Below are positions 5,246 through 38,495 of a DNA stretch of 64,000 nt, piece by piece. Each line of letters begins with the position of its first letter. Positions within the stretch are counted from its first letter, which is position 1. The notes under the pieces were generated by a model. It was not told where the DNA came from. It ran no database searches and saw only the letters and a program-made list of their open reading frames with translations. This DNA comes from Xanthobacter sp. NM-59 (GTDB lineage: Bacteria; Pseudomonadota; Alphaproteobacteria; Rhizobiales; Xanthobacteraceae). The stretch spans positions 186,001-250,000 of the forward strand of contig NZ_JACBFQ010000007.1 of NCBI RefSeq assembly GCF_021401125.1. Direction: 5' to 3'. The position numbers and the translations under genes were made by a program.

Positions 5246-5305
5246 CGGCGCATGCCGCCCCATCGGGCCGGCACGCCCTGACAGACCAGGAGCGGCCCAA
5301 ATGAA

Positions 5306-5329
5306 AACGCCGGCCCGAAGGCCGGCGTT
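5306..5329 (-). terminator. Rho-independent terminator of ahcY, possibly bidirectional
   Basis: A perfect 10-bp GC-rich stem (AACGCCGGCC / GGCCGGCGTT) closes a four-base loop that reads TTCG on the minus strand, and a TTTT run follows on that strand. It lies 24 bp beyond the ahcY stop and about 60 bp beyond the convergent rimM stop. Confidence 0.85.
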
Positions 5330-5352
5330 CGCATGTCTGGGATCGGGTGCGA

Positions 5353-6750
<1,398 letters not shown>

Positions 6751-7323
6751 GGCTTACTCCGCTGGAAATCGGCCGGGCCGAACGGGCGCGAGGCAAGGAT
6801 CGGTCGCGGCATCAAGTTCGGCCCGCGGGCCATTAGCACGGAGAGAGGACGGCAGCAATCAAGACATAAAGAAATGTTTATATGGCCGACATGAAAAGCC
6901 CTTTCGGGGTCTGAGTTCCGCAGCGCACACAACGCAGGCTGGTCGGAAGCCCGACAAGCGCGCTTTGATTCTTACAAAAATTGTGATATACGGCACTTTA
7001 CAGTCGATTGCTTCCACCAATGCTGCAAGCGCGTACACCTTCGCGCAGTCTGGGAATACCCCTCTTTCGGCACACAGGCTTTTCGAGATCACAGGAGCCT
7101 CTGGAGCACCGAGGTGAGATTTGCGTGTCAACCGCCGCATCGTAGGCGTCGGCGGCGTGACGCGGCAGCTTGTTATGGCCATCGGCTGGCAGAGCGGGTC
7201 GTCGGGCGTCCGGCCGCGACCCATGTCCACAGCGCACGGCGCCCCGCGCCCCGGTGACCGGACCGGGACGTGACACGCGCCAACAGATCCGGCCTCCGGG
7301 GCGGATCGGGAGTGGTCAAGAGC
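6751..7323. other. Long divergent intergenic region between ahcY and carD
   Basis: 573 bases holding the promoter regions of ahcY (left) and carD (right). Apart from the AT-rich palindrome at 6866-6881 and a second AT-rich stretch near 6965-7000, I see no convincing gene; the open frames here lack ribosome-binding sites and overlap one another. Confidence 0.5.
6866..6881 (-). promoter_or_regulatory. Candidate operator of the methionine/SAH-cycle regulator upstream of ahcY
   Basis: An inverted repeat ATAAA-N6-TTTAT lies in an AT-rich patch about 115 bp upstream of the ahcY start. AT-rich palindromes of this type upstream of ahcY are described for ArsR-family SahR-type regulators in alphaproteobacteria. 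The match is from memory and the regulator itself is not in the window. Confidence 0.4.
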
Positions 7324-22546: not shown

Positions 22547-22600
22547 TGGTAGCAGCGGGCGGACTTGAACCGCCGACCTCCGGGTTATGAATCCGGCGCT
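22547..22600. repeat. attL: 54-bp duplicate of the 3' part of tRNA-Met
   Basis: Identical over 54 bp to 38419-38472, the 3' portion (CCA end, T arm, anticodon arm) of the complete tRNA-Met gene. It diverges immediately after, so this copy lacks the D arm and 5' acceptor strand and cannot make a tRNA. With the integrase 159 bp away it marks the left end of the element. Confidence 0.95.
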
Positions 22601-22721
22601 TCACTGTTTTCCGGGATTGGATCGGGTTAGATCGGATTGGCTAGAGCGTTTACTTTCAATGGCTTATTGTTTGTCCGGATTGGATCAGCGTGGATCCGGT
22701 TTGCCTCAATTTCCCGACTCG

Positions 22722-22746
22722 TGCTGACTTGCTGCTGACTTGGGAT
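22722..22746. promoter_or_regulatory. Integrase arm-type repeats, left end
   Basis: Two direct copies of TGCTGACTTG (22722-22731 and 22733-22742), the second extended by GGAT. The same words in the same orientation occur at the right end (38352-38390). They lie just upstream of int, so integrase binding could also repress its own gene. Confidence 0.6.
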
Positions 22747-22758
22747 GGAGAAGTCAGC

Positions 22759-24066
22759 ATGCCGAAGCTCACGAAGAGGGTGGTGGACGCCACCGAGCCG
22801 GACCCCGCCCGCAAGGTGATGGTGTGGGATGCGGAGATGAAAGGCTTCGGCCTGCGGGTGACGCCAGCCGGGGTGAAGTCCTACGTGGTGAGCTATCGGA
22901 CACCGGAGGGTCGCCAGCGCGAATTCACCATCGGCAAGCACGGTTCGCCCTGGACCTGCGAGATGGCACGGGAGAAGGCGCGCGAGGTGCTACACGGGCT
23001 CACCCAAGGGGTGGACCCGCTGGAAGCCAAGATCGCCGCGCGCGCGGTGCTCACGGTGAAGGCATTGGCCGACCTCTACATTGAGGAAGGCCCTGCCGAA
23101 CGCCCATCAAAGAAGCCGCGCGGCTGGAAGGATGACCGATCCCTCTTTGACCGGCATATCATTCCGCTCATCGGCGCGAAGCCCATAACCGGCCTAAAGC
23201 CATCCGACATCGCAAAGATGCAGGCCGACATTGCTGCGGGTAAGACGGCCGCCGACATCAAGACGGGCTTCCGGGGCCGCGCCATTGTCACAGGGGGTGA
23301 GGGCAGCGCCTCCCATGCAGTGGTGTGCCTGAAAGCGGCCCTGCAATTCGCGGTGCGACGTGAGCTGATCGAGAAAAACCCGGCGGCGGGCGTGCAGCTC
23401 TACAAGGGCAAGAAGATGGAACGCTTCCTGAGCTTAGAGGAAGCCGGCCTGATCGGAGAAGCTGCGCAGGCCCTCTTGGACGATGGCACCATCAACGAAG
23501 CGTGGGTGTCCGCTGTTCGCCTGCTGATGCTCACCGCATGCCGCAAGAGCGAAGTCCTTGGCCTCGAATGGTCAAGGATCGACATGCAGCGTGGCCTCAT
23601 CAACTTTCCCGATTCGAAGACGGGCGCCAAGGCAACGCCGCTGCCCCCGGCCGCAATCGAGACGCTCCGCGGACTGCCACGCAAGCCCGGCTCACCCCAC
23701 GTGTTCCCCGCCCTACGAGGCGACAACGGGCACATGGTCGCTTTGCAAAAGCCCTGGACCGCCGTCCGGGTGAAGGCGACAGCGCTGGCGCGCGAGCGTG
23801 CCGTGAAGGCGGGGACTGATCCTGACGCGGCCCCCAACCTGACGGCCGTTCGCCTTCACGATCTGCGGCACAGCTTCGCTTCGTTCGCCGTGGAGGCCGG
23901 CGCTTCCCTATTCATGGTGGGCAAGGTGCTCGGGCATCGGCAGGCAGCCACGACCGAACGCTATGCCCATTTGCGGGACGACCCCCTCAAGGCGCTGTCG
24001 AACAGCACCGCCTCGATGATCGACGCGGCCATGAAGGGCGGGAAGAAGCGCGAGCCTGAAGGCTGA
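22759..24066 (+). CDS. int: Site-specific tyrosine recombinase (integrase)
   Basis: 435 residues. An N-terminal arm-binding DUF4102-type domain (about 1-90; KLTKRVVDATEP, DAEMKGFGLRVTPAGVKSY), a SAM-like core-binding domain, and a C-terminal catalytic domain with Arg in TACRKSEVLGLEW, the HxxR box LHDLRHSF, the LGHRQAATTERYAHL segment and its nucleophilic Tyr. P4-type integrases of this layout insert at tRNA 3' ends. It lies beside attL and reads into the element. ATG 22759 follows GGATGGAG; an upstream ATG at 22690 would run through the arm repeats. Confidence 0.96.
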   Translation: MPKLTKRVVDATEPDPARKVMVWDAEMKGFGLRVTPAGVKSYVVSYRTPEGRQREFTIGKHGSPWTCEMAREKAREVLHGLTQGVDPLEAKIAARAVLTVKALADLYIEEGPAERPSKKPRGWKDDRSLFDRHIIPLIGAKPITGLKPSDIAKMQADIAAGKTAADIKTGFRGRAIVTGGEGSASHAVVCLKAALQFAVRRELIEKNPAAGVQLYKGKKMERFLSLEEAGLIGEAAQALLDDGTINEAWVSAVRLLMLTACRKSEVLGLEWSRIDMQRGLINFPDSKTGAKATPLPPAAIETLRGLPRKPGSPHVFPALRGDNGHMVALQKPWTAVRVKATALARERAVKAGTDPDAAPNLTAVRLHDLRHSFASFAVEAGASLFMVGKVLGHRQAATTERYAHLRDDPLKALSNSTASMIDAAMKGGKKREPEG

Positions 24067-26039: not shown

Positions 26040-26705
26040 CTAATTCTCGTCAGGCACATTCCGGTCACCACGAACGACTGATGGGATATCGATAAGCTCG
26101 CGAATCTCTGCCAACCACGGGCTAGGTGCATGTACTGCGGGACCAAAGGACCCTATGGGCACGAGCAATCCGGTGCGCGCTAAGCTAGCACAGATCGCAT
26201 GAAGGTCACCCAGGGCAAACCCTGCCTTTCCCGCCATCGTGTTTAGTCGCCGCCAAAACTCCGCGGCACGCTCTTCGTCCCCTTGAGCAGATACATCGGC
26301 TTCACATAAACAGGAAAATCCAAGTATAAGTAATTCATCGCGCGTTAAATCCTCTAGTATTTTAGCCCACTTCAAAAATGCGTCTTCCGATAATGCCCTT
26401 TTCGTTTTAAGTCCGGCTATAACTTGTGAAAGGAGGCGGATATTTTGAATTGATGTTCCATCTGAAATCGCGCGCGATATGCGCAGAACCATTGCAACAA
26501 CAGGTTCTACATCCGTATCCTCAAATTTAATTTGGCCATGAATGCCATGCGACAACTCGTCAATTAGAATTTCTACACTCTTTCTTCTTCGATCATCAAT
26601 TACTTTTTGAAAAATATGGCTAATTGTACCGCTTCCTGGCAGTATCAATGCGCACAAATCGCTGGCAATTACCGCGCCAAGCCTGGCTAGCTCAAAGTCA
26701 CTCAT
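26040..26705 (-). CDS. Unknown protein translationally coupled to the XRE repressor
   Basis: 221 residues, mostly helical, no membrane segment; opens with FELARLGAVIASDLCALILPGSG. Its ATG overlaps the stop region of the upstream XRE repressor gene by 4 bp, so the two are translated together and it may modulate the repressor or provide immunity. It is the most AT-rich gene of the element (roughly 26300-26650), pointing to a different origin from the packaging genes. Family not recognised. Confidence 0.6.
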   Translation of the reverse strand: MSDFELARLGAVIASDLCALILPGSGTISHIFQKVIDDRRRKSVEILIDELSHGIHGQIKFEDTDVEPVVAMVLRISRAISDGTSIQNIRLLSQVIAGLKTKRALSEDAFLKWAKILEDLTRDELLILGFSCLCEADVSAQGDEERAAEFWRRLNTMAGKAGFALGDLHAICASLARTGLLVPIGSFGPAVHAPSPWLAEIRELIDIPSVVRGDRNVPDEN

Positions 26706-26941
26706 GCCCGGCCCCTCAGCCTCACGCCCGGCCCGTTGCCATTCTGCTCAATGAATAGCACGCCGGCAGCTTCAAGGGCGGCTACGATCTTAGACACCGT
26801 GTCAGCCCGCCCGCCAAGGGGGCCATCCACGGACTCCAAACGCGCTATTGTCGGTTCGGAAACCCCTGATGCCTTAGCGAGATCGCCCTGCGACCATGCG
26901 AGCATTGCCCGCGCCGCCTTCACCTGCCGAACGGAGATCAC
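26702..26941 (-). CDS. XRE-family helix-turn-helix repressor
   Basis: 79 residues from a GTG at 26941. Classical helix-turn-helix: ISVRQVKAARAMLAWSQGDLAKASGVSEPTIARLE, then a short C-terminal helix-strand (IVAALEAAGVLFIEQNGNG). That ending is typical of small XRE regulators of alphaproteobacterial mobile elements. GTG was chosen over the ATG at 27007 because homologous sequence starts at ISVRQ, GAGG sits 8 bp upstream, and the two operator-like dyads would otherwise be coding. Divergent from the rightward block, as expected for the master repressor. Confidence 0.8.
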   Translation of the reverse strand: MISVRQVKAARAMLAWSQGDLAKASGVSEPTIARLESVDGPLGGRADTVSKIVAALEAAGVLFIEQNGNGPGVRLRGRA

Positions 26942-26954
26942 TGGAGCCTCATTG

Positions 26955-27004
26955 ATAGAATTTCTATTGACCGATCCAATGTGGCGGATTAATAGTTTTT
27001 CTAT
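26955..27004. promoter_or_regulatory. Paired operators between the divergent repressor and early genes
   Basis: Two 13-bp dyads with the same arms and spacing, ATAG-N5-CTAT, at 26955-26967 and 26992-27004, centres 37 bp apart, in an AT-rich gap between the XRE gene and the rightward gene at 27031. Probable binding sites of the XRE repressor. Confidence 0.65.
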
Positions 27005-27030
27005 CATTAACGCGCTCCCGGAGCAACCTA

Positions 27031-27351
27031 ATGCCCAAGCCCACCGCTGCGGCAAACGTAACCCCCATGCCTGAAGCCCGCCTGCTCACCGACGCGGAGA
27101 AGCTCGCCCGTCTCCACGACCTGGAGAGCGAAGCCTATGAGGTCGCCAATATGGCCGGTGTCGTCTGGGACTTGATGGAGAGCCTGTTCGACGGGAGCCA
27201 GAGCCCCGGCGTGACTGGTGACCGGACCGACCTGCACTCGCTCGACCCTGGCAAAGTGGAGCGTCTGCACTTCGCTGCGGCGCACTCCATGGAACTCACT
27301 GGCCGGTTCAAGGACCGGTTCATGGAGGGCCTGGGCTACGGCGGCTCCTGA
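27031..27351 (+). CDS. First gene of the rightward block, unknown small protein
   Basis: 106 residues, acidic and helical (LTDAEKLARLHDLESEAYEVANMAGVVWDLMES). GGAG lies 7 bp before the ATG, and the repressor's operators lie directly upstream, so this would be the first protein made on derepression. A C-terminal segment ending FMEGLGYGGS is unremarkable. Function unknown. Confidence 0.65.
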   Translation: MPKPTAAANVTPMPEARLLTDAEKLARLHDLESEAYEVANMAGVVWDLMESLFDGSQSPGVTGDRTDLHSLDPGKVERLHFAAAHSMELTGRFKDRFMEGLGYGGS

Positions 27352-28080: not shown

Positions 28081-28332
28081 ATGGACGCGATCAACCTTCC
28101 GCCTCGCCTCCGCAAGCCCCGTCTCAGCCGCAAGGAAGCCTGCGAATACCTTGAGATGGTTCACGGCATCACCCGCGCCGTGAGCACCCTCGCGAAGCTG
28201 GCTCACACGGGCGGTGGCCCTGCCATCGAATATGTCGGCAAGCGTGATCTGCGCTACCCGCGCACGGGCCTCGATGCGTGGGCCGAACGCCTCATCTCCC
28301 CTCCCGTCTACTCCACCGCAGAAAGGAAGTGA
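28081..28332 (+). CDS. AlpA/excisionase-like helix-turn-helix protein
   Basis: 83 residues. LSRKEACEYLEMVHGITRAVSTLAKLA, then GGPAIEYVGKRDLRYPRTGLDAWAERL, gives the short winged helix of AlpA/Xis-type proteins (HTH then the strand-turn that ends DLxxWxxxR). AlpA activates integrase or excision in P4 and in PICIs. It starts 3 bp after the stop of the MerR-like gene, so they are co-expressed. Confidence 0.7.
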   Translation: MDAINLPPRLRKPRLSRKEACEYLEMVHGITRAVSTLAKLAHTGGGPAIEYVGKRDLRYPRTGLDAWAERLISPPVYSTAERK

Positions 28333-28923: not shown

Positions 28924-29216
28924 TCGACTTCGCCGCCATCAACGGGGCCGCTCTGGCGGCCCTGCCTTCCATCCTCGCCCGCTGGCTCCCTGGAGGCCGG
29001 CGGCAGGGGGCTGAATACGTGGTGCGCAACCCGAAGCGCGCGGACGGGCGGCCCGGCTCCTTCTCCATCAACCTGCGCTCGGGCCGGTGGAGCGACTTCG
29101 CAACCGGCGATGCGGGCGGCGATCCCGTGTCCCTTGCCGCTTACCTCTTCGACCTCACCCAGGCGGACGCCGCGCGCCGTCTCGCTGCCATGCTCAACGT
29201 GAAAGGGGGGGCTTGA
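28920..29216 (+). CDS. Primase N-terminal-like protein
   Basis: 98 residues. RPGSFSINLRSGRWSDFATGDAGGDPVSLAAYLF resembles the segment after the zinc ribbon in phage primases (the RWxDFATGDxGGD signature), without the zinc cysteines. It overlaps the next gene, which begins at the TOPRIM half, by 3 bp. Together the two probably make a bipartite primase-helicase. Confidence 0.7.
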   Translation: MIDFAAINGAALAALPSILARWLPGGRRQGAEYVVRNPKRADGRPGSFSINLRSGRWSDFATGDAGGDPVSLAAYLFDLTQADAARRLAAMLNVKGGA

Positions 29217-31816
29217 TGCACGCTGCCCTTGATGACGCTTTCGCCCCCCTCTCGCCGGAAGAGGCGTCCGCCTCCGAGCGGGCGGCTCCGAAGCGCGAGG
29301 AAGAGACACCCATTGTTCCGGTTCCTGCCGATGCGCCGGCCATGTCGTTCAAGCTCTCGAAGCATGGGGCGCCGTCCCGCGTGTGGCCCTATCACGACGC
29401 CGAAGGTCGGCTCATGGGCTATGTCTGCCGCTGGGACTTCACTGATGCCGAGGGCAACCCGGCAAAGCAGGTGCGCCCCGTCACCTATTGCGACCTGGGA
29501 AACGACAAGAGAGCCTGGCGCGCGAAGGGCATCCCCTCTCCTCGTCCGCTTTTCGGCTTGCCGGACATTCTAGCCAGCACTGACGCCATGGTGATCGTGA
29601 CGGAAGGCGAGAAGGCACGCGATGCCGCCGCCGCGCTGTTCCCCGACATGGTTGCGACAACGCCCGCCCATGGTGCCAAGAGCCCGCACCTCACGGACTT
29701 CAGCCCGCTCGCCGGCCGAACGGTGGTGATCGCGACTGACAATGACGACGCCGGCCAAGCCTATGGCGACAAGGTGTGCGAGCTGGCGCGCGCTGCTGGC
29801 GCTGCGCAAGTGCTCCATTTGCCGCCGGATCGCCTGGGCGCCTGGCTCTGGCAGGGCGAAGAGAAGACGTTGCGCGGCGAAACCTTGCCGGCCGGGTGGG
29901 ACATTGCCGACGCACTCGAAGAGGGATGGACGGCGGAACGCGTTGCCGAGATGCGCGGCGATCCCGCTTTCCTGCCTCTCTATCGCGATGCCGAAGAGCG
30001 CGAGACGCTGCGGCGGATCGAGGCCGGCGAGCCCGAGGAACTCACCAAGTGGCCGTTCCGCGTCGTCTCCAATGGAGTCGAAAAGCGGATCGAGAAGGCC
30101 GACAAGGAAACCGGGATCGTCACCATCGAATGGCGGTGGTTCTGTTCGCTCCTTGAGGTGTCGGCGAAAACGCGAAGCGCGGACGGCGAGGAATGGGGCC
30201 GGCTGCTGAAGATCACAGACGACGACAAGCGCGTGAAGTATTGGGCCATGCCCATGGAGATGCTGGCTGGCGACGGCATCGACTATCGCAAACGGCTGAA
30301 TTCCCTCGGGCTCACCATGGCACCGAGCACCTTCGCTCGAAACGCCCTGCACGAATACATTTCGACCGCACGCCCCGATACCAAGGCCCGATGCGTCGGG
30401 CGGATCGGCTGGCATGGCAAGGTCTATGTCCTGCCATCTGATACCATCACCGCCGTCGAATCAGAAGAGAGGACCCTTCTCCAGACTGTCGGCGAGGCCG
30501 ATCATGCCTTCCGAGAGGCTGGCACCCTGGAAGGCTGGCAGAATGGCATTGCGCGCCTTGCGGTGGGCAATTCCCGGCTGGCCTTTGCCATGTCCGTTGC
30601 CTTCGCGGCGCCGCTGCTCTATCCGGCCGGCGCGGAGGGCGGAGGCTTTCACTTCCGGGGCGCCTCTTCCACGGGGAAAAGCACGGCGCTGGTGGTGGCG
30701 GGTTCGGCTTGGGGCGGCGGTGACATCCGGGGCTATGTGCGCACCTGGCGCGCCACCTCCAACGGGCTCGAAGGCGTAGCGGCCATGCACTGCGATGCCC
30801 CCATGCTTCTAGACGAAATGGGGGAGGTTGACGGACGGGAAGCCGGTGCGGTCGCGTACATGTTGGCCAATGGCGTGGGCAAGTCGCGGGCCGGTCGCAG
30901 CGGCGAAGCGCGCAAGGCGGCGGAATGGCGGCTACTGTTCCTTTCAAGTGGCGAATTGAGTCTTGATGCCAAGGTCGCGGAGGGTGGCCGGAAGGTCGCC
31001 GCCGGGCAACAGGTGCGGATCGTGGACATTCCGGCCGATGCCGGTGCGGGCCTTGGCCTGTTCGAGAACCTGCACGGCTTTCCTTCCGCCGATGCCTTCG
31101 CCCGGCACCTGAAGATGGCGGCCGGCGAGCACTACGGCACGCCCACCCGCGCCTTCCTGCAAACGCTGGTGGACAATTTCGACGCCATCGCGCCCACGGT
31201 GAAGGGCTATGTGGACGAGTTCATTGCCGAGAACTGCCCCAAGACCGCCGATGGGCAAGTGAGCCGCGTTGCCGCCCGCTTCGGACTGGTCGCCGCTGGC
31301 GGGGAGATGGCGACCGCTGCCGGTGTCCTGCCCTGGACCGAGGGTGAGGCGACACGCGCCGCTGCCCGGTGCTTCCGGGACTGGCTCGCTGCGCGCGGCG
31401 GCATCGAACCGGCGGAGGAGACGGAAGCCATCGCGGCCGTGCGCCGCTTCATTGAGCTTCACGGAAACTCGCGCTTCGAGGCCATGGGCGAACTGGCGCC
31501 GCGCGACGGCATCGGGGCGCCCATTGACCAGCGCATCACAAACCGCGTGGGCTTCCGGCGCCGGGCCGAAGGCGGCGGCATCGAATATCTAGTGCTGCCG
31601 GAATCGTGGAAAAGCGAGGTGTGCGCCGGTCTGGACGCGGGAGCGGTGGCGAAAGTGCTGAACGGGCGCGGGCTGCTGGTGGCGGGTGGGGATGGAAAGC
31701 CGCAGGTGAAGACGAGGCTTCCAAACTTCGCGAGCCCCGTCCGCTGCTACGTCATCGCGGCCGGCATTCTTGGCGATGCCGAGCCCGCGACCTATGCTGA
31801 GCGGGATTTTGGCTGA
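29216..31816 (+). CDS. TOPRIM primase / DUF927 helicase-like replication protein
   Basis: 866 residues. An N-terminal TOPRIM domain (MVIVTEGEKARDAA with the catalytic Glu, then VVIATDNDDAGQ with the paired Asp, about 115-200) and a DUF927 ATPase core with Walker A FRGASSTGKSTAL at about residue 480 and a Walker B-like MLLDEMGEVDG. This is the usual primase-helicase of alphaproteobacterial phages and satellites and would start replication of the excised element. ATG 29216 overlaps the stop of the preceding primase-domain gene. No separate replication-origin signal was found. Confidence 0.9.
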   Translation: MHAALDDAFAPLSPEEASASERAAPKREEETPIVPVPADAPAMSFKLSKHGAPSRVWPYHDAEGRLMGYVCRWDFTDAEGNPAKQVRPVTYCDLGNDKRAWRAKGIPSPRPLFGLPDILASTDAMVIVTEGEKARDAAAALFPDMVATTPAHGAKSPHLTDFSPLAGRTVVIATDNDDAGQAYGDKVCELARAAGAAQVLHLPPDRLGAWLWQGEEKTLRGETLPAGWDIADALEEGWTAERVAEMRGDPAFLPLYRDAEERETLRRIEAGEPEELTKWPFRVVSNGVEKRIEKADKETGIVTIEWRWFCSLLEVSAKTRSADGEEWGRLLKITDDDKRVKYWAMPMEMLAGDGIDYRKRLNSLGLTMAPSTFARNALHEYISTARPDTKARCVGRIGWHGKVYVLPSDTITAVESEERTLLQTVGEADHAFREAGTLEGWQNGIARLAVGNSRLAFAMSVAFAAPLLYPAGAEGGGFHFRGASSTGKSTALVVAGSAWGGGDIRGYVRTWRATSNGLEGVAAMHCDAPMLLDEMGEVDGREAGAVAYMLANGVGKSRAGRSGEARKAAEWRLLFLSSGELSLDAKVAEGGRKVAAGQQVRIVDIPADAGAGLGLFENLHGFPSADAFARHLKMAAGEHYGTPTRAFLQTLVDNFDAIAPTVKGYVDEFIAENCPKTADGQVSRVAARFGLVAAGGEMATAAGVLPWTEGEATRAAARCFRDWLAARGGIEPAEETEAIAAVRRFIELHGNSRFEAMGELAPRDGIGAPIDQRITNRVGFRRRAEGGGIEYLVLPESWKSEVCAGLDAGAVAKVLNGRGLLVAGGDGKPQVKTRLPNFASPVRCYVIAAGILGDAEPATYAERDFG

Positions 31817-32202: not shown

Positions 32203-33387
32203 ATGTTCTCTCGCCTCCGCCACCTCTTCACGCCCGAGCGTAAATCCCTCGCCACGCCTGATGCGGCATTGCTGGCGCTTCTTGGCGCGGGCGGCCCGAC
32301 TGCTGCGGGGGTGAATGTCGGATCTTCCAGCGCCCTCACGGTTCCGGCGGTGGCCTGCGCGGTGCGCGCCATCTCGGAAGCCCCCGCTACCCTCGACGTG
32401 AAGGTGATGCGCGGCACCGAAGAGGTGAGCGACCATCCCGTGGCGGGCCTGCTGCGCGGCGACGTGAACGACTGGACGGACGGCTTCAGCTTTCTCCGCG
32501 ATCTGGTTGCCCAGGCTCTCACCCATGACGAAGGCGGGCTCGCGTGGGTGAACCGCGTGGCCGGCGCTCCGGTGGAGATCATCCACTATGAGGCCGGCGC
32601 GCTCACCGTCGAACGCGACATGAACGGCACGCGCGAGCCGAGCTATCGCCTGCACGGCGCACCCATCGATGCCCGCGACGTGATCCACCTTCAAAGCCCG
32701 TTCGGCCGCTCCCCCGTCTCCCTGGCGCGGGAGAGCATCGGCCTTGCCCTCACCCTCGACGCCCATGCGGCGCGGCTGTTCGGCAACGGTGCCCGCCCGT
32801 CCGGGATGATCACGCTGAAGGACAAGACCACCCCCGAGGCCCTGCGGCGGATCAAGGAAGCGTGGCAGCTTGCCCTCGGTGGCGGCAAGAGCGGCGGCAC
32901 GGCCATTCTGGAAGGTGGAGCCGAATACGCACAGCTCGCCCTGTCGAGCGTGGATGCGCAATTCGTTGAGCTGCGGCAAGGGGTGATCCTCGACATTGCC
33001 CGCGCCTTCCGGGTGCCGCCGCAAATGCTCTACGACCTCACGCGCGCCACGTGGTCGAACGCGGAACAGATGGGGCGCGAGTTCCTCACCTACACGCTGG
33101 AACCGTGGCTGCGTGCGCTGGAAGGTGCCCTGCGCCGCGCCCTGTTCACGCCTGAGGAACGCGCCGCCGGCCTGCGCATCACCTTCGACCGGGACGACCT
33201 CACCCGCGCCGACATCGGCGCCCGGGCCACGGCCTATTCGTCGCTCATCGCCTCCCGCGTGCTCTCCCCCAACGAAGCGCGCGGCTGGGAGGGCCTGCCG
33301 CCCTATGCCGGCGGCGATGCCTTCGCCAATCCCAACACCGGCGCCAACCAGGCCGGCGCCCCCGCGCCGCAGGATGGAGCCGCCTGA
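32203..33387 (+). CDS. HK97-family phage portal protein
   Basis: 394 residues, normal for HK97-type portals. Recognisable segments: VPAVACAVRAISEAPATLDVKV, the HDEGGLAWVNRV strand, FGRSPVSLARESIGLALTLDAHAARLFGNGARPSG, and QLALSSVDAQFVELRQGVILDIARAFRVPP. The portal forms the dodecameric DNA entry ring at one capsid vertex. Its stop overlaps the protease-capsid ATG (TGATG), so stoichiometry of the head proteins is translationally coupled. Two CCAATCAAA direct repeats (32116-32124 and 32131-32139) precede it. Confidence 0.93.
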   Translation: MFSRLRHLFTPERKSLATPDAALLALLGAGGPTAAGVNVGSSSALTVPAVACAVRAISEAPATLDVKVMRGTEEVSDHPVAGLLRGDVNDWTDGFSFLRDLVAQALTHDEGGLAWVNRVAGAPVEIIHYEAGALTVERDMNGTREPSYRLHGAPIDARDVIHLQSPFGRSPVSLARESIGLALTLDAHAARLFGNGARPSGMITLKDKTTPEALRRIKEAWQLALGGGKSGGTAILEGGAEYAQLALSSVDAQFVELRQGVILDIARAFRVPPQMLYDLTRATWSNAEQMGREFLTYTLEPWLRALEGALRRALFTPEERAAGLRITFDRDDLTRADIGARATAYSSLIASRVLSPNEARGWEGLPPYAGGDAFANPNTGANQAGAPAPQDGAA

Positions 33388-34988
33388 TGGAACACCTCAC
33401 CCTTGAAGTGAAATTCGCCAGCGGAGAGGCCGGGCTCGTGTCGGGCTATGCCTCGCTGTTCGGTGGCCCGGCCGACCTGGTGCGCGACGTGGTGGCCCCC
33501 GGCGCCTTCGGCCGCGACCTTGCCGCCCATGCCGCCCTCGAAACCATGCCCGCCATGCTGTTCGAGCACAAAGGTGCGCCCATCGGCGCTTGGCTGGAGA
33601 TCGAGGAAGACGAGCTGGGCCTGAAGGTCAAAGGCCAGATCGACCTTGCCACCCCCGCCGGACGGGACGCTTACGAGCTGGTGCGCAGCGGGGCGGTGGA
33701 TGGGCTTTCCATCGGCTATCTGGCTGTGAAGTCCGAGCGCGCGCCGGACGGCATCCGCACCCTTCAGCACATCGAATTGCACGAGATCAGCCTCGTTCGG
33801 CGCCCTGCGTCGAGCCGGGCCCGCGTGCTCAGCGTGAAATCGGCCGCAGGCGCGGCGAGCAACGGGAAGACCCCCATGGAAAACGATACCAACACCGCCG
33901 ACGCCCCCACCATCGACACCCGCGTGGCGGGCCTTGAAGAGAGCGTGGCCGGCATCGACAGCCGGCTGAAGGCCGTGGAAGACAAGGTGGGCAGCGTGAA
34001 GAGCGTGGCCGACCGGATCGAGGCCAAGCTGAACCGGCCGGGCATCGCCACCAAGAGCGAGGAAGGAGCGCTGGAGACGAAGGCGTTCACCTCCTATGTG
34101 CGCCGGGGCGATGCGGCCACCGGCCTGGAGATGAAGAACCTCACCCAGGCCAGCAATGGCGGCGGCTATCTCGCGCCCACCGAGTTCATCAAGGAGATTG
34201 TGAAGGGGCTGGTGGAGGTGTCGCCCATCCGTTCCTATGCCCGCATTCTCTCCATCTCTGCGGCCGAGGCCAAGATGCCCAAGCGCACCGGCACCATGAC
34301 GGCCGCGTGGGTGTCCGAAACCGGCGCCCGCCCCTCGACCGAACCGACCTATGGCGAGGTGACGCTGACCCCGCACGAAGCAGCCTGTTATGTGGACGTG
34401 TCCAACGCCCTGCTGGAAGACAACGCCTACAACCTTGTCGGGGAGCTGTCGGCGGACTTCGCGGAGGAGTTCGGCCGGCTGGAAGGCGCGGCCTTCGTCT
34501 CCGGTGACGGTACAGGCAAGCCGGCGGGCATCCTGGCTGACACCACCATCACGAAGGTGACCAGCGCGGCCACGGCCCTCACGGCTGACGACCTCATCGA
34601 CCTGTTCCACGCGCTGCCGGGCTTCTATGCGGCGAACGGCGTGTGGGGCATGAACCGCACGACCATCGGCGCGGTGCGCAAGATGAAGACCACGGTCGGC
34701 GACTACCTGTGGCGCGACGCCATGTCGGAGGGCAACCCGGCCACCATTCTCGGGCGCCCGGTGGTGGAACTGCCGGACATGCCGGACGTGGCGGCCGATG
34801 CCCTGCCCATCCTCTTCGGTGACCTGAAGCAGGGCTACCGGATCGTTGACCGCCTCTCCCTGTCGGTGCTGCGCGATCCCTACACCCAGGCCCCCAATGG
34901 CCAGACCCGCTTCCATGCCCGGCGCCGCGTCGGCGGTGGCGTGGTGAAGGCGGAGGCCCTGCGCCTGCTGAAGGTGAAGGCGGCCTGA
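33387..34988 (+). CDS. Prohead protease - major capsid protein fusion (HK97 type)
   Basis: 533 residues. Residues 1-155 are the HK97 prohead protease (LVSGYASLFGG, the catalytic His in MLFEHKGAPIG and Ser in GAVDGLSIGYLAV). A helical delta-like scaffold (about 165-240, GLEESVAGIDSRLKAVEDKV) follows, and residues ~245-533 are the capsid fold (NGGGYLAPTEFIKEIVKGL, ARILSISAAEAKMPKR, RLEGAAFVSGDGTGKPAGIL, and a C-terminal ARRRVGGGVVKAEAL). In phage HK97 these are separate genes. An in-frame ATG at 33876 with its own GGGAAG ribosome-binding site would give a 370-residue capsid-only product. Confidence 0.93.
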   Translation: MEHLTLEVKFASGEAGLVSGYASLFGGPADLVRDVVAPGAFGRDLAAHAALETMPAMLFEHKGAPIGAWLEIEEDELGLKVKGQIDLATPAGRDAYELVRSGAVDGLSIGYLAVKSERAPDGIRTLQHIELHEISLVRRPASSRARVLSVKSAAGAASNGKTPMENDTNTADAPTIDTRVAGLEESVAGIDSRLKAVEDKVGSVKSVADRIEAKLNRPGIATKSEEGALETKAFTSYVRRGDAATGLEMKNLTQASNGGGYLAPTEFIKEIVKGLVEVSPIRSYARILSISAAEAKMPKRTGTMTAAWVSETGARPSTEPTYGEVTLTPHEAACYVDVSNALLEDNAYNLVGELSADFAEEFGRLEGAAFVSGDGTGKPAGILADTTITKVTSAATALTADDLIDLFHALPGFYAANGVWGMNRTTIGAVRKMKTTVGDYLWRDAMSEGNPATILGRPVVELPDMPDVAADALPILFGDLKQGYRIVDRLSLSVLRDPYTQAPNGQTRFHARRRVGGGVVKAEALRLLKVKAA

Positions 34989-35307: not shown

Positions 35308-35607
35308 ATGGCCGACACCCTCGATATTCTCCCCCTTGCCGACCTCAAGGCCCATCTGCGGATCGACCATGCCGACGAAGACGTCAGTCTTTCCGACCTG
35401 ATCGAGACGGCGCGGGGCGTCGTGGAAGGCTGGTGCGGCCCGCTGGACGATTTCACCGGTGACGTTCCCGCGCCCCTGGTGCACGCCATGAAGCTCTATG
35501 CCGGGCACCTCTATGAGAACCGCGAGGCGACCATGGCGGGCGACCTCGCTGAAGCGCCCCTGGGCTTCTTCGACCTGATCGACCCGTTTCGCCTGAGGGC
35601 CTGCTGA
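35308..35607 (+). CDS. Phage head-tail connector protein (gp6-like)
   Basis: 99 residues. PLADLKAHLRIDHADEDVSLSDLIETARGVVEGWCG and VHAMKLYAGHLYENRE are the helix pattern of HK97 gp6-type connectors, which form a ring under the portal. It is the only neck or tail-proximal protein in the element. Its stop overlaps the HNH start (TGATG). Confidence 0.85.
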   Translation: MADTLDILPLADLKAHLRIDHADEDVSLSDLIETARGVVEGWCGPLDDFTGDVPAPLVHAMKLYAGHLYENREATMAGDLAEAPLGFFDLIDPFRLRAC

Positions 35608-35963
35608 TGCCCTGGGCACCGCCGAAGCACTGCCCGCGCGGCCACCCCTCCTTCACCGGCTCGCAATGCCCAGTGTGTGCTGCCGAGCGGAAGAAGGCGG
35701 CCGATGCCCGGCGCCCCTCCGCGTCCGCCCGTGGCTACTCAGAGAAGTGGCGCAAGGCGTCCCGCTCCTGGCTCGCCAGCCCCGGCCGTGAGCGCTGCGT
35801 GCACTGTGGTGGGCCTGCCGAGATGGTGGATCACCGCATCGCCCCCAAGGGCGACATGAAGCTGTTCTGGGACGTGAGCAACTGGCAGCCATCCTGCCGG
35901 GCCTGCAACACCCGCAAGGCGATCCGCGAGGAAGGCGGGTTCGGCAATGCGGTGTCGAGGTAG
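35607..35963 (+). CDS. HNH endonuclease of the packaging module
   Basis: 118 residues. Two zinc-binding CxxC pairs (CPVCAA near the N terminus, CVHCGG and CRACNTR around the core) and the HNH catalytic segment VDHRIAPKGDMKLFWDVSNWQPSC. HNH proteins next to terminases of HK97-like phages assist the large terminase in cutting DNA at packaging, and cf-PICIs carry such a gene as well. Overlaps the connector gene by 1 bp. Confidence 0.92.
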   Translation: MPWAPPKHCPRGHPSFTGSQCPVCAAERKKAADARRPSASARGYSEKWRKASRSWLASPGRERCVHCGGPAEMVDHRIAPKGDMKLFWDVSNWQPSCRACNTRKAIREEGGFGNAVSR

Positions 35964-36068: not shown

Positions 36069-36476
36069 ATGAAGGGCCGTAAGCCGAAGCTCCAGATCGT
36101 GGATGGCAGCAAGGGGGCTGGGCGCTGCCCGCCGCCTCCCGGATCGCTCTGCGCCCACGGGGCCGCGGAATGGAAGCGCACCGCACCGCTCCTTCATGAG
36201 CGCGGGCATCTCACCGACGACACCCTGGCGACGCTGGAAGGCTACTGCCGCGCTGTGGGCCTCTCGCGCACCTATACCGAGATGATGAACGCCGAAGGCC
36301 ATGTGCTCCAGACCGACAAGGGGCCTGTGACGCACCCCGCCTTCAAGATGCTCATGGGCGCCATGCGGGAAGCGCGCCTGCTCGCGGCCGAACTCGCGCT
36401 GACGCCCCATCGGCGCGGCACCGCCGCCAAGGAAGGGGAAGCCGCCAATGGCTGGGACACCGATCTTCTCGCCTGA
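36069..36476 (+). CDS. Terminase small subunit, P27 family
   Basis: 135 residues. Opens MKGRKPKLQIVDGSKGAGRCP, the characteristic P27 N terminus, and has the helical AAEWKRTAPLLHERGHLT and ATLEGYCRAVGLSRTYTEMM segments. TerS recognises the packaging site and recruits the large subunit. AAAAGGAG precedes the ATG. It overlaps the TerL gene by 29 bp in another frame. Confidence 0.9.
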   Translation: MKGRKPKLQIVDGSKGAGRCPPPPGSLCAHGAAEWKRTAPLLHERGHLTDDTLATLEGYCRAVGLSRTYTEMMNAEGHVLQTDKGPVTHPAFKMLMGAMREARLLAAELALTPHRRGTAAKEGEAANGWDTDLLA

Positions 36477-38073
36477 GCCTGGGCTCTATCCCGACCCCAC
36501 CGGCCGGGCGGATCGCATGTGCCGCTTCGTGCGCCGTCTCCGGCTGTGGGAGGGACGCTTCGCGGGGCAGCCCTTCACCCTGCATCCGTTTCAGGAAGCC
36601 ATCATCCGCCGCATCTATGGCCCCTCGACGGACACCGGGGCGCGGCTGGTGCGCACCGCCTGCATCTGGATTCCACGCGGCAACGCAAAGACCACGCTTG
36701 CTTCCGCCCTGGCGCTCGCGCACTTCATGGGGCCGGAGGCGGAGGCCGGCGGACAGGTGATCCAGGCGGCGGCCGACCGGGAGAATGCCGGCATCGCCTT
36801 CAAGCACTCGTTCGAGATGGTGAAGCAGGACGGCGCCTTGCTCTCCCGCGTCGCACCCATCGAAAGCCGCAAGACCCTCAACCATCCCGGCACTGCGAGC
36901 GTGCTGAAGGCCATCTCGACCGAGGCCTATTCCAAGCACGGCCTAAACGTCTCCTTCTTCCTGGCGGACGAGGTGCATGCGTGGCCGGCCTCGGAGGCGC
37001 GCAAGCTGTTCAAGGTGGTGACCGATTCCATGGTGAAGCGCGACCAGCCCTTGACCATCGTCATCTCGACGGCCGGCGAGGGCACGGGCGGGCTTGCCTC
37101 CGATTTGTGGGAGTACAGCCACAAGGTGGCCTCCGGCGAGATCGAAGACTCGACCTTCGCCCCCATCATCTTCGCCGCGCCAGCCGGTGCCGACTGGCGG
37201 GATGAAAGCGCCTGGCACAGCGCAAACCCCGCCATTGCCGCCGGCTTCTGCTCGCTGGAGGAACTGCGCATCAAGGCCCGGCGGATCGAGCATTTTCCGG
37301 CTGAGATTGCCGACTTCAAGCGCTTCCACCTCAATCTGTGGCAGGAGGGCGCGGCCGAACCCTGGCTTGCCCTGGAGGTGTACGACGCGGCCGAACCCAT
37401 GGCGCCGGCGGAAGAGCTGGAAGGGCGCCCCTGTTGGGTGGGCGTGGACCTCTCCAGCGTGGAAGACCTCACCGCCGTGGTGGCCGTGTTCCCCTTCGCA
37501 GGCGAGGACGGGCACGCCCGCTATGACGTGCTGCCCATGTTCTTCCTGCCCGAGGCCGGCCTTGCCCGCAAAGCCGAGCGGGACCGGGCGGATTATCTGA
37601 AGTGGAAGGACGCGGGCTTTCTCACCGTGACCGCCGGCAACGTGGTGGATCACAGCGCCATCATTGAACACGTGGTGGCCTTGGGCGAACGCTACGGGGT
37701 GCAGGAAGTGGCCATCGACCGATGGAACTCCACCGCCGTGAACACGGCCCTTCAGGAGGAGGGCTTCACCATCAACCAGTTTGGCCAGGGCTTCGCCAGC
37801 ATGGCCGCACCGGTCAAGGAGCTGAAGCGGGCCATCCTCGCCGGGCACTTCCGGCACGGCGGCAATCCCCTCCTGCGCATGTGCTTCGGCAATGTGGTGG
37901 CGGAGCGGGACGCGGCCGAGAACGAGAAGTTCACCAAGGAGAAGGCCCGCGAACGCGGTCGCATCGACGGCGCGGTTGCCGCCGCCATGGCCATCGGCCG
38001 CATCCTGGCAACTGACACCGGCACCAGCATCTACGACAGCGACGAGTGGACCCCCGACATGATGGTCATGTGA
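36448..38073 (+). CDS. Terminase large subunit
   Basis: 541 residues. An N-terminal ATPase with Walker A-like IPRGNAKTTLAS and Walker B FFLADEVHAW, the coupling motif VISTAGEG, then an RNase-H-like nuclease domain with acidic residues in VGVDLSSVEDLTA, IDRWNST and the C-terminal GRIDGAVAAAMAIG. It translocates DNA into the prohead and cuts it. YmfN/HK97-type terminases of this sort pair with the HNH, P27 TerS and HK97 portal found here. Last gene of the rightward block; module copy D starts 5 bp after the stop. Confidence 0.94.
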   Translation: MAGTPIFSPEPGLYPDPTGRADRMCRFVRRLRLWEGRFAGQPFTLHPFQEAIIRRIYGPSTDTGARLVRTACIWIPRGNAKTTLASALALAHFMGPEAEAGGQVIQAAADRENAGIAFKHSFEMVKQDGALLSRVAPIESRKTLNHPGTASVLKAISTEAYSKHGLNVSFFLADEVHAWPASEARKLFKVVTDSMVKRDQPLTIVISTAGEGTGGLASDLWEYSHKVASGEIEDSTFAPIIFAAPAGADWRDESAWHSANPAIAAGFCSLEELRIKARRIEHFPAEIADFKRFHLNLWQEGAAEPWLALEVYDAAEPMAPAEELEGRPCWVGVDLSSVEDLTAVVAVFPFAGEDGHARYDVLPMFFLPEAGLARKAERDRADYLKWKDAGFLTVTAGNVVDHSAIIEHVVALGERYGVQEVAIDRWNSTAVNTALQEEGFTINQFGQGFASMAAPVKELKRAILAGHFRHGGNPLLRMCFGNVVAERDAAENEKFTKEKARERGRIDGAVAAAMAIGRILATDTGTSIYDSDEWTPDMMVM

Positions 38074-38418: not shown

Positions 38419-38472
38419 TGGTAGCAGCGGGCGGACTTGAACCGCCGACCTCCGGGTTATGAATCCGGCGCT
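38419..38472. repeat. attR: 54-bp direct repeat within tRNA-Met
   Basis: Identical to 22547-22600. It marks the right end of the integrated element. Confidence 0.95.
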
Positions 38473-38495
38473 CTCACCAACTGAGCTACGCTGCC
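38419..38495 (-). tRNA. tRNA-Met (anticodon CAU), elongator type
   Basis: 77 nt on the minus strand. A 7-bp acceptor stem (GGCAGCG with CGCTGCT, first pair G-U), a D arm GCTCAGTTGGTGAGAGC, anticodon loop TTCATAA, a T arm with GGTTCAAGTCC, and an encoded CCA end. The normal Watson-Crick arms and A-type D loop favour elongator rather than initiator. Its last 54 bp form attR, so the element rebuilds an intact gene on insertion. Confidence 0.96.

Follow-up and report, generated by a model that had tools for sequence, protein, structure and literature searches.

A conserved internal start codon points to a nested capsid-only product in the protease-capsid fusion gene of a putative capsid-forming satellite island

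The stretch of Xanthobacter sp. NM-59 DNA analysed here (64,000 nucleotides of contig NZ_JACBFQ010000007.1, hereafter the window, with positions counted from its first letter) carries on its plus strand, at 33387 to 34988, a gene in which an HK97-type prohead protease and a major capsid protein form a single reading frame of 533 residues. Comparison with related genes indicates that the gene very probably belongs to a capsid-forming satellite island and yields two products from nested, in-frame starts. Specifically, one frame holds both domains, and within the linker that joins them the sequences of the relatives conserve a start codon together with a Shine-Dalgarno site, from which a capsid protein without the protease may be translated.

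The architecture of the fusion protein is well defined by profile matches to the translated frame. The prohead protease model TIGR01543 covers residues 17-153 (33435 to 33845; 93.1 bits) and the capsid model TIGR01554 residues 165-530 (368.5 bits), both above their curated cut-offs of 59 and 27.5 bits, and Pfam places Peptidase_S78 at residues 9-149 and Phage_capsid (PF05065) at 259-529 (34161 to 34973), the latter being an HK97-fold domain also by fold match. A coiled-coil match to DUF7310 at residues 163-216 stays under its Pfam cut-off. The ATG at 33876 is codon 164, falls between the end of the protease match and the beginning of the capsid match, and opens a nested frame of 370 residues that ends with the fusion (33876 to 34988). 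Upstream of it, and separated from it by six bases, lies GGGAAG (33864 to 33869), a weak Shine-Dalgarno-like site with a duplex energy of -4.3 kcal/mol (the unit of all energies below). The initial annotation, which had proposed the single protease-capsid frame and the internal ATG with its upstream GGGAAG, is borne out on these points, its coordinates and lengths included. The predicted structure (mean predicted local distance difference test score, pLDDT, 71.8) consists of the protease domain, a low-confidence stretch, a long helix at residues 183-215 (33933 to 34031) that probably serves the capsid protein as a coiled-coil scaffold segment, and a shell domain of HK97 type; pLDDT is below 50 at residues 145-191, so that the linker with the internal start is predicted to be disordered. 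Antisense to the gene there is an open frame of 537 codons (33303 to 34916, minus strand), probably a by-product of the high content of guanine and cytosine (GC).

Searches of genome and viral collections yielded 129 fused open reading frames (ORFs), corresponding to 113 distinct genes with that of the window included (94 when clustered at 90% and 34 at 60%). Their linkers vary greatly in length and sequence, and the start codon recurs. In an alignment of the 113 genes made from protein letters only, a single linker column holds methionine in 81, valine in 11, leucine in 10 and other residues in 11. Nine of the 11 valine codons are GTG, for which pooled usage is 38%, and seven of the 10 leucine codons are TTG (pooled usage 7%), giving a start codon at the column in 97 of the 113 genes (81 ATG, nine GTG and seven TTG). 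The excess of TTG has p = 8e-7, 8e-6 and 0.006 with 113, 94 and 59 sequences, respectively, and that of GTG p = 0.004, 0.004 and 0.018. Among the 16 genes without a start codon at the column, 15 have an ATG 1-11 codons upstream; in the last one (L032), which falls in another capsid clade, the linker runs to about 160 residues, with ATGs 18, 42, 69 and 100 codons downstream, of which those at 42 and 69 are well paired. Because some of the searches had one linker-start peptide among their six patterns, the test was repeated on the 52 fused genes that were found without any linker pattern: at the column, 47 of these carry a start codon (38 ATG, with GTG for four of five valines and TTG for all five leucines) and the other five an ATG 1-11 codons upstream.

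The pairing of these sites with the ribosome leads in the same direction. Column-defined sites were picked regardless of pairing and compared with synonymous recodings (1000 draws), the duplex energies being computed against an assumed anti-Shine-Dalgarno sequence. With clustering at 90% (n = 78) the mean energy is -6.13 versus -4.61 for the recodings, and with clustering at 60% (n = 27) it is -6.56 versus -4.58; in neither case was any of the 1000 nulls as low. The z score at the column site is -6.6, as against -2.2 to +3.1 when the site is displaced by -12 to +40 codons (seven positions). The genes found without the linker pattern again pair beyond all 1000 nulls (-5.91 versus -4.85, z = -3.4, n = 40; at 60% clustering -6.20 versus -4.51, z = -3.5, n = 18), with z of +0.2 to +2.3 at four shifted positions. 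Among 94 genes, 74 have an ATG with an energy of -4 or better in the first 30 codons past the protease, versus 407 of 2706 windows placed in the capsid domain (15%). Mean RNA folding over 51 nucleotides, sampled from -60 to +60 codons around the start (n = 78), is weakest at the start itself (-6.2 versus -7.1 to -16.3 at 24 other positions). The loss of the internal ATG or of its ribosome-binding site in close homologues, which by the initial annotation would have refuted the internal start, is thus not what the relatives show: most fused genes have a start codon at the column, and pairing is above the synonymous null.

Several observations weigh against this interpretation or limit its reach. 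The 3′ end of the host's 16S ribosomal RNA was not found in the assembly, so that the anti-Shine-Dalgarno sequence is an assumed one. Candidate starts had been inspected before the column test was made, though that test uses protein letters only, and at 34 sequences (60% clustering) the excess of GTG and TTG is not significant (0.28 for valine and 0.25 for leucine). The dip in RNA folding comes in part from the start having the lowest GC content; a residual of +1.55 +/- 0.29 is left after correction for GC, and the positions at +5 and -10 codons keep residuals like that of the start. As for the gene in the window, its internal site is near the weak end of the family, with 66 of 78 sites stronger, nine equal (itself included) and three weaker, the RNA around it folds at -12.3 and is not open, and the full-length start pairs at -6.5 versus -4.3 at the internal one. 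Taken alone this site is not above chance, since 23.7% of 920 other in-frame ATGs of the fused genes reach -4 or better; it is conservation in the relatives that lifts it above chance. The weak pairing and the folded RNA are what would be seen if the ATG at codon 164 of this particular gene were a coincidence and its ribosome site a poor one, even if the relatives use theirs. That possibility is an unlikely one: the ATG stands at the conserved column, the near relatives L081, L001, L083 and L085 likewise have a paired ATG at the column or close by, and five of ten other starts scored in the same island (those of the integrase, portal, connector, primase and ORF 31816, with start codons as mechanically listed) pair more weakly.

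A similarly improbable explanation is that only the full-length fusion is made, so that every capsid subunit carries a protease that cleaves itself off in the linker, the conserved Met-Glu-Asn motif being a cleavage or folding signal. With a continuous frame, any ribosome that uses the first start has to make the fusion, the linker is predicted to be flexible, as a cleavage site would be, and pairing is no weaker at the full-length start than at the internal one. Yet a protein motif has no need of GTG for valine or TTG for leucine, the codons found in 9/11 and 7/10 cases; it leaves the Shine-Dalgarno pairing beyond synonymous expectation unexplained; and the same layout occurs in fusions with other linker sequences.

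The nested two-product reading, as supported by the comparison of relatives, does not extend to the amounts of the two products. The initial annotation had expected both a fused chain and an excess of capsid protein from one gene; the part concerning two products is upheld by the relatives, and the excess is not. In 68 genes of the family the full-length start, for which the ATG closest to the protease domain was used, pairs at -6.6 versus -6.0 at the internal start, that is, on average equally or more strongly, and therefore an excess of the short product is not supported. A fixed excess of capsid-only protein was accordingly rejected, the pairing energies giving no sign of one.

Relatives in which protease and capsid are encoded by separate genes are informative about the history of the fusion. 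On a tree of the capsid domains (122 rows) fused and split genes are intermixed, the two states needing at least 29 changes, 18 of them imposed by well-supported branches; the tree of the proteases (121 rows) needs 10, four of them imposed in this way, both trees having been made by FastTree and the protease alignment being short. The smaller number of changes on the protease tree suggests that the fusion travels with protease and linker, and capsid domains were probably exchanged by recombination at the linker, as judged from these trees. The median distance from domain to domain is 150 nucleotides in fused and 307 in split genes, the split set being the broader one and including more distant prophage genes. 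In split relatives a protease tail of about 25 residues is followed by a capsid N-terminus with about 64-69 residues before the conserved domain, and in fused genes about 37 residues lie between the internal start and that domain. A simple origin by loss of a stop codon was rejected, given that fused and split linkers differ in length. That the internal start is a recent relic of this kind, the undecayed start of a separate capsid gene that lost the stop codon before it, would agree with the intermixed states on the capsid tree and with the split genes looked at, whose capsid start candidates are often at, beside or overlapping the protease stop (many of them pairing similarly), and it is nonetheless highly unlikely, because fused genes as distant as 38% identity to that of the window (in one alignment of fused genes) keep the site, because removing a stop from a split gene would not give a linker like those of the fused genes, and because the fusion state fits the protease tree better than the capsid tree. 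A loose docking-tail motif is found in 31 of 76 split tails versus two of 46 fused linkers, which is only suggestive of a loss of docking tails in fused genes, and just eight of 70 split genes have an MKH-like capsid start. Given the shorter stretch between the domains in fused genes, tethering may have replaced the docking elements.

If the gene is nested, its two products could work together as follows. Initiation at 33387 would give the 533-residue protease-capsid fusion; initiation inside the flexible linker, at 33876, would give a protease-free capsid protein of 370 residues that keeps its helical scaffold segment. As the two products have scaffold and capsid domains in common, they should co-assemble. 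The N-terminus of the HK97 capsid protein forms trimeric coiled-coil towers around the portal (PMC10275583). By analogy, the short product would supply unfused shell subunits, while the fusion would bring a covalently attached protease into the procapsid and put some proteases at the tips of such towers; the protease would then cut the scaffold segment and release itself, so that scaffold and protease would be lost together through proteolysis. In this scheme we infer that the two products are translated, that they co-assemble and that the protease frees itself, as well as any fixed ratio between the products.

The working principle has a precedent. In phage lambda the C and Nu3 products form such a pair, a long protease-bearing product and a short one sharing its C-terminal part, where the nested product is the scaffold. 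In the window it would be the shell protein that is nested, and no sequence relation to the lambda genes is claimed; a conserved internal in-frame start with a ribosome site, one of the marks of a nested in-frame pair, is found in the fused family. The lambda scaffold and protease fusion is mentioned in PMC5513430. The capsid of RcGTA, the gene transfer agent of Rhodobacter capsulatus, is the top solved relative of the window capsid, and in RcGTA protease and capsid are separate genes. HK97 too has separate genes for protease and capsid (PMC10275583), gp4 and gp5, which by model names belong to the same families as the window domains. No credible solved relative was found for the protease part of the window alone.

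Protease-capsid fusions have also been reported in actinophages, namely in clusters AM, AU, AN, EE, EL and others, several of which share little sequence similarity (PMC5513430; PMC7302621). As described there, one gene encodes protease, scaffold segment and capsid; these fusions differ from that of the window in belonging to full phages with tails and in having other capsid sequences, and the protease part of the EE genes matches the window protease only distantly. Seven such genes were examined (L382 and L385-L390; YertPhresh, Naby, phiExGM16, Maggie, Circum, Gordon and Camille), two phages with separate genes (L383 and L384) being left out. In all seven, an ATG of -5.8 to -11.4 follows the protease part and precedes the capsid part, and their annotated records list the long product only. 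No solved relative was found for three of the actinophage fusions. A further set comes from the NCBIfam protease/capsid fusion family NF045541, whose twelve best-scoring loci were fetched (L391-L402); one of them (L402) has no anchor and was left unscored, and the 11 anchored genes all have an ATG of -5.9 to -9.5 at 29-38 codons after the anchor. The window gene shares with this family the fused layout and the internal ATG, and its protein was rejected as a member, scoring 29 bits against a cut-off of 525. All told, the 18 scorable genes of other fusions (19 fetched) have a well-paired ATG between protease and capsid.

These cases suggest a general rule, which we consider somewhat better than an even guess: that HK97-type protease-capsid fusion genes, in satellites and small-genome phages, are nested two-product genes in which unfused shell protein comes from an internal start and fusion replaces the non-covalent docking of the protease. 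Certain features of the actinophage genes temper it. An ATG of -5.5 or better is found in 21% of their other 60-codon windows; four of the genes (Maggie, Circum, Gordon and Camille) also contain strong in-frame ATGs farther downstream, the one at codon 242 of Circum being slightly stronger than its linker ATG; the linker ATG of Gordon is about 100 residues beyond the protease part; and the protease boundaries were drawn by eye. Moreover, the cases are not independent: the three EE genes are closely related to one another, AM, AU and EL also form a related group, and the proteases belong to one broad family and may have a common origin with those of the satellites.

The fusions themselves are already known, and the passages of the open-licence literature on them describe no internal start; a shell protein nested in a protease-capsid fusion, kept throughout the large satellite family and met again in the other fusions, was not found by searches of that literature directed at it. 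To our knowledge there is no settled account of how many proteases a phage puts into each capsid and by what means, or of how it tolerates a fused protease on every subunit. Were fused genes nested genes, many subunits would be free of protease and the latter difficulty would go, as a single gene would both tie the protease to the shell and supply unfused subunits. Annotation would then change, since the seven actinophage records list the long product alone, which matters for capsid proteomics, and the recurrence in other fusions makes the nested-gene idea a testable rule.

The fusion gene lies inside an island of 15.9 kb that is bounded by a perfect 54-bp repeat, the left copy at 22547 to 22600 being identical to 38419 to 38472, which is part of a tRNA-Met gene (38419 to 38495, minus strand). 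Within the island the following were identified, on the plus strand except where stated: a tyrosine integrase (22690 to 24066), an HTH_3 repressor-like protein on the divergent strand (26702 to 27055, minus), an HTH_17 DNA-binding protein whose match is just below the Pfam cut-off (28081 to 28332; 25.3 versus 27), a DUF927 primase/helicase-like protein (29087 to 31816), the portal protein (32203 to 33387), whose stop codon overlaps the ATG of the fusion gene by one base, and, after the fusion, a head-tail connector (35308 to 35607), an HNH endonuclease (35607 to 35963), the terminase small subunit (TerS; Terminase_4, 36069 to 36476) and the terminase large subunit (TerL; 36448 to 38073). The gene set by which capsid-forming phage-inducible chromosomal islands (cfPICIs) are defined comprises capsid, protease, portal and head-tail connector (PMC10690885). 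The island has its own copies of all four, together with its own packaging set (TerS, TerL and HNH endonuclease) and, as in a chromosomal island, an integrase and attachment repeats at tRNA-Met. From its gene content, the fusion gene thus appears to lie in a tRNA-integrated island with the gene set of a capsid-forming satellite and not in a full prophage, a point that the initial annotation had missed. The island ORFs scanned gave no match to a tail or lysis family, several small ORFs being without a family or outside the scan. An ordinary prophage was rejected on the lack of such matches among the scanned ORFs, on the position of the terminase after the head genes and on the repeats that bound 15.9 kb. 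The Escherichia coli cfPICI EcCI2 (PDB 9gyi) likewise has integrase, portal, protease, capsid, connector, HNH, TerS and TerL, and in both sequence and fold its capsid chain ranks among the best matches of the window capsid, after the RcGTA capsid. The two differ in that the deposited EcCI2 capsid chain has 385 residues with no protease part matched, whereas the window has one frame with a nested start.

The gene order is shared by the fused relatives. Of 94 fused genes, 92 have portal directly upstream. TerL follows the fusion on the same strand in 70 and precedes it in none; it was not found in the remaining 24, and in 22 of these the downstream sequence is shorter than 4 kb. Among 194 distinct split-gene relatives TerL is downstream in 53 and upstream in 28, with no match in 113. 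In this family, therefore, every fusion for which TerL can be placed is accompanied by the gene order of a satellite.

A second cfPICI-like island is present in the same genome (L403; G000:C35:34500-54000). Its fusion gene (5250-6815, minus strand) encodes a protein 50% identical to that of the window and has its own internal ATG (MSETT); its DUF927 primase is split over two overlapping frames (profile 1-129 and 132-282), and TerL is followed by an HK97-gp10-like gene, which Pfam names a putative tail component. Other HK97-type protease/capsid matches in this genome are in separate frames (G000:C31:160121-161916), broken by stops (G000:C3:144280-145235), or distant and partial (G000:C11:1116757-1118061). 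In the relatives, attachment repeats were not found in L201 and L083 by the same kind of search as for the window, and Pfam named no integrase in L201. A tRNA gene is located downstream of the fusion in three of seven relatives scanned (L201, 14871-14947; L083, 14419-14495; L085, 14483-14559), and in L201 it is a tRNA-Met directly after TerL, as in the window.

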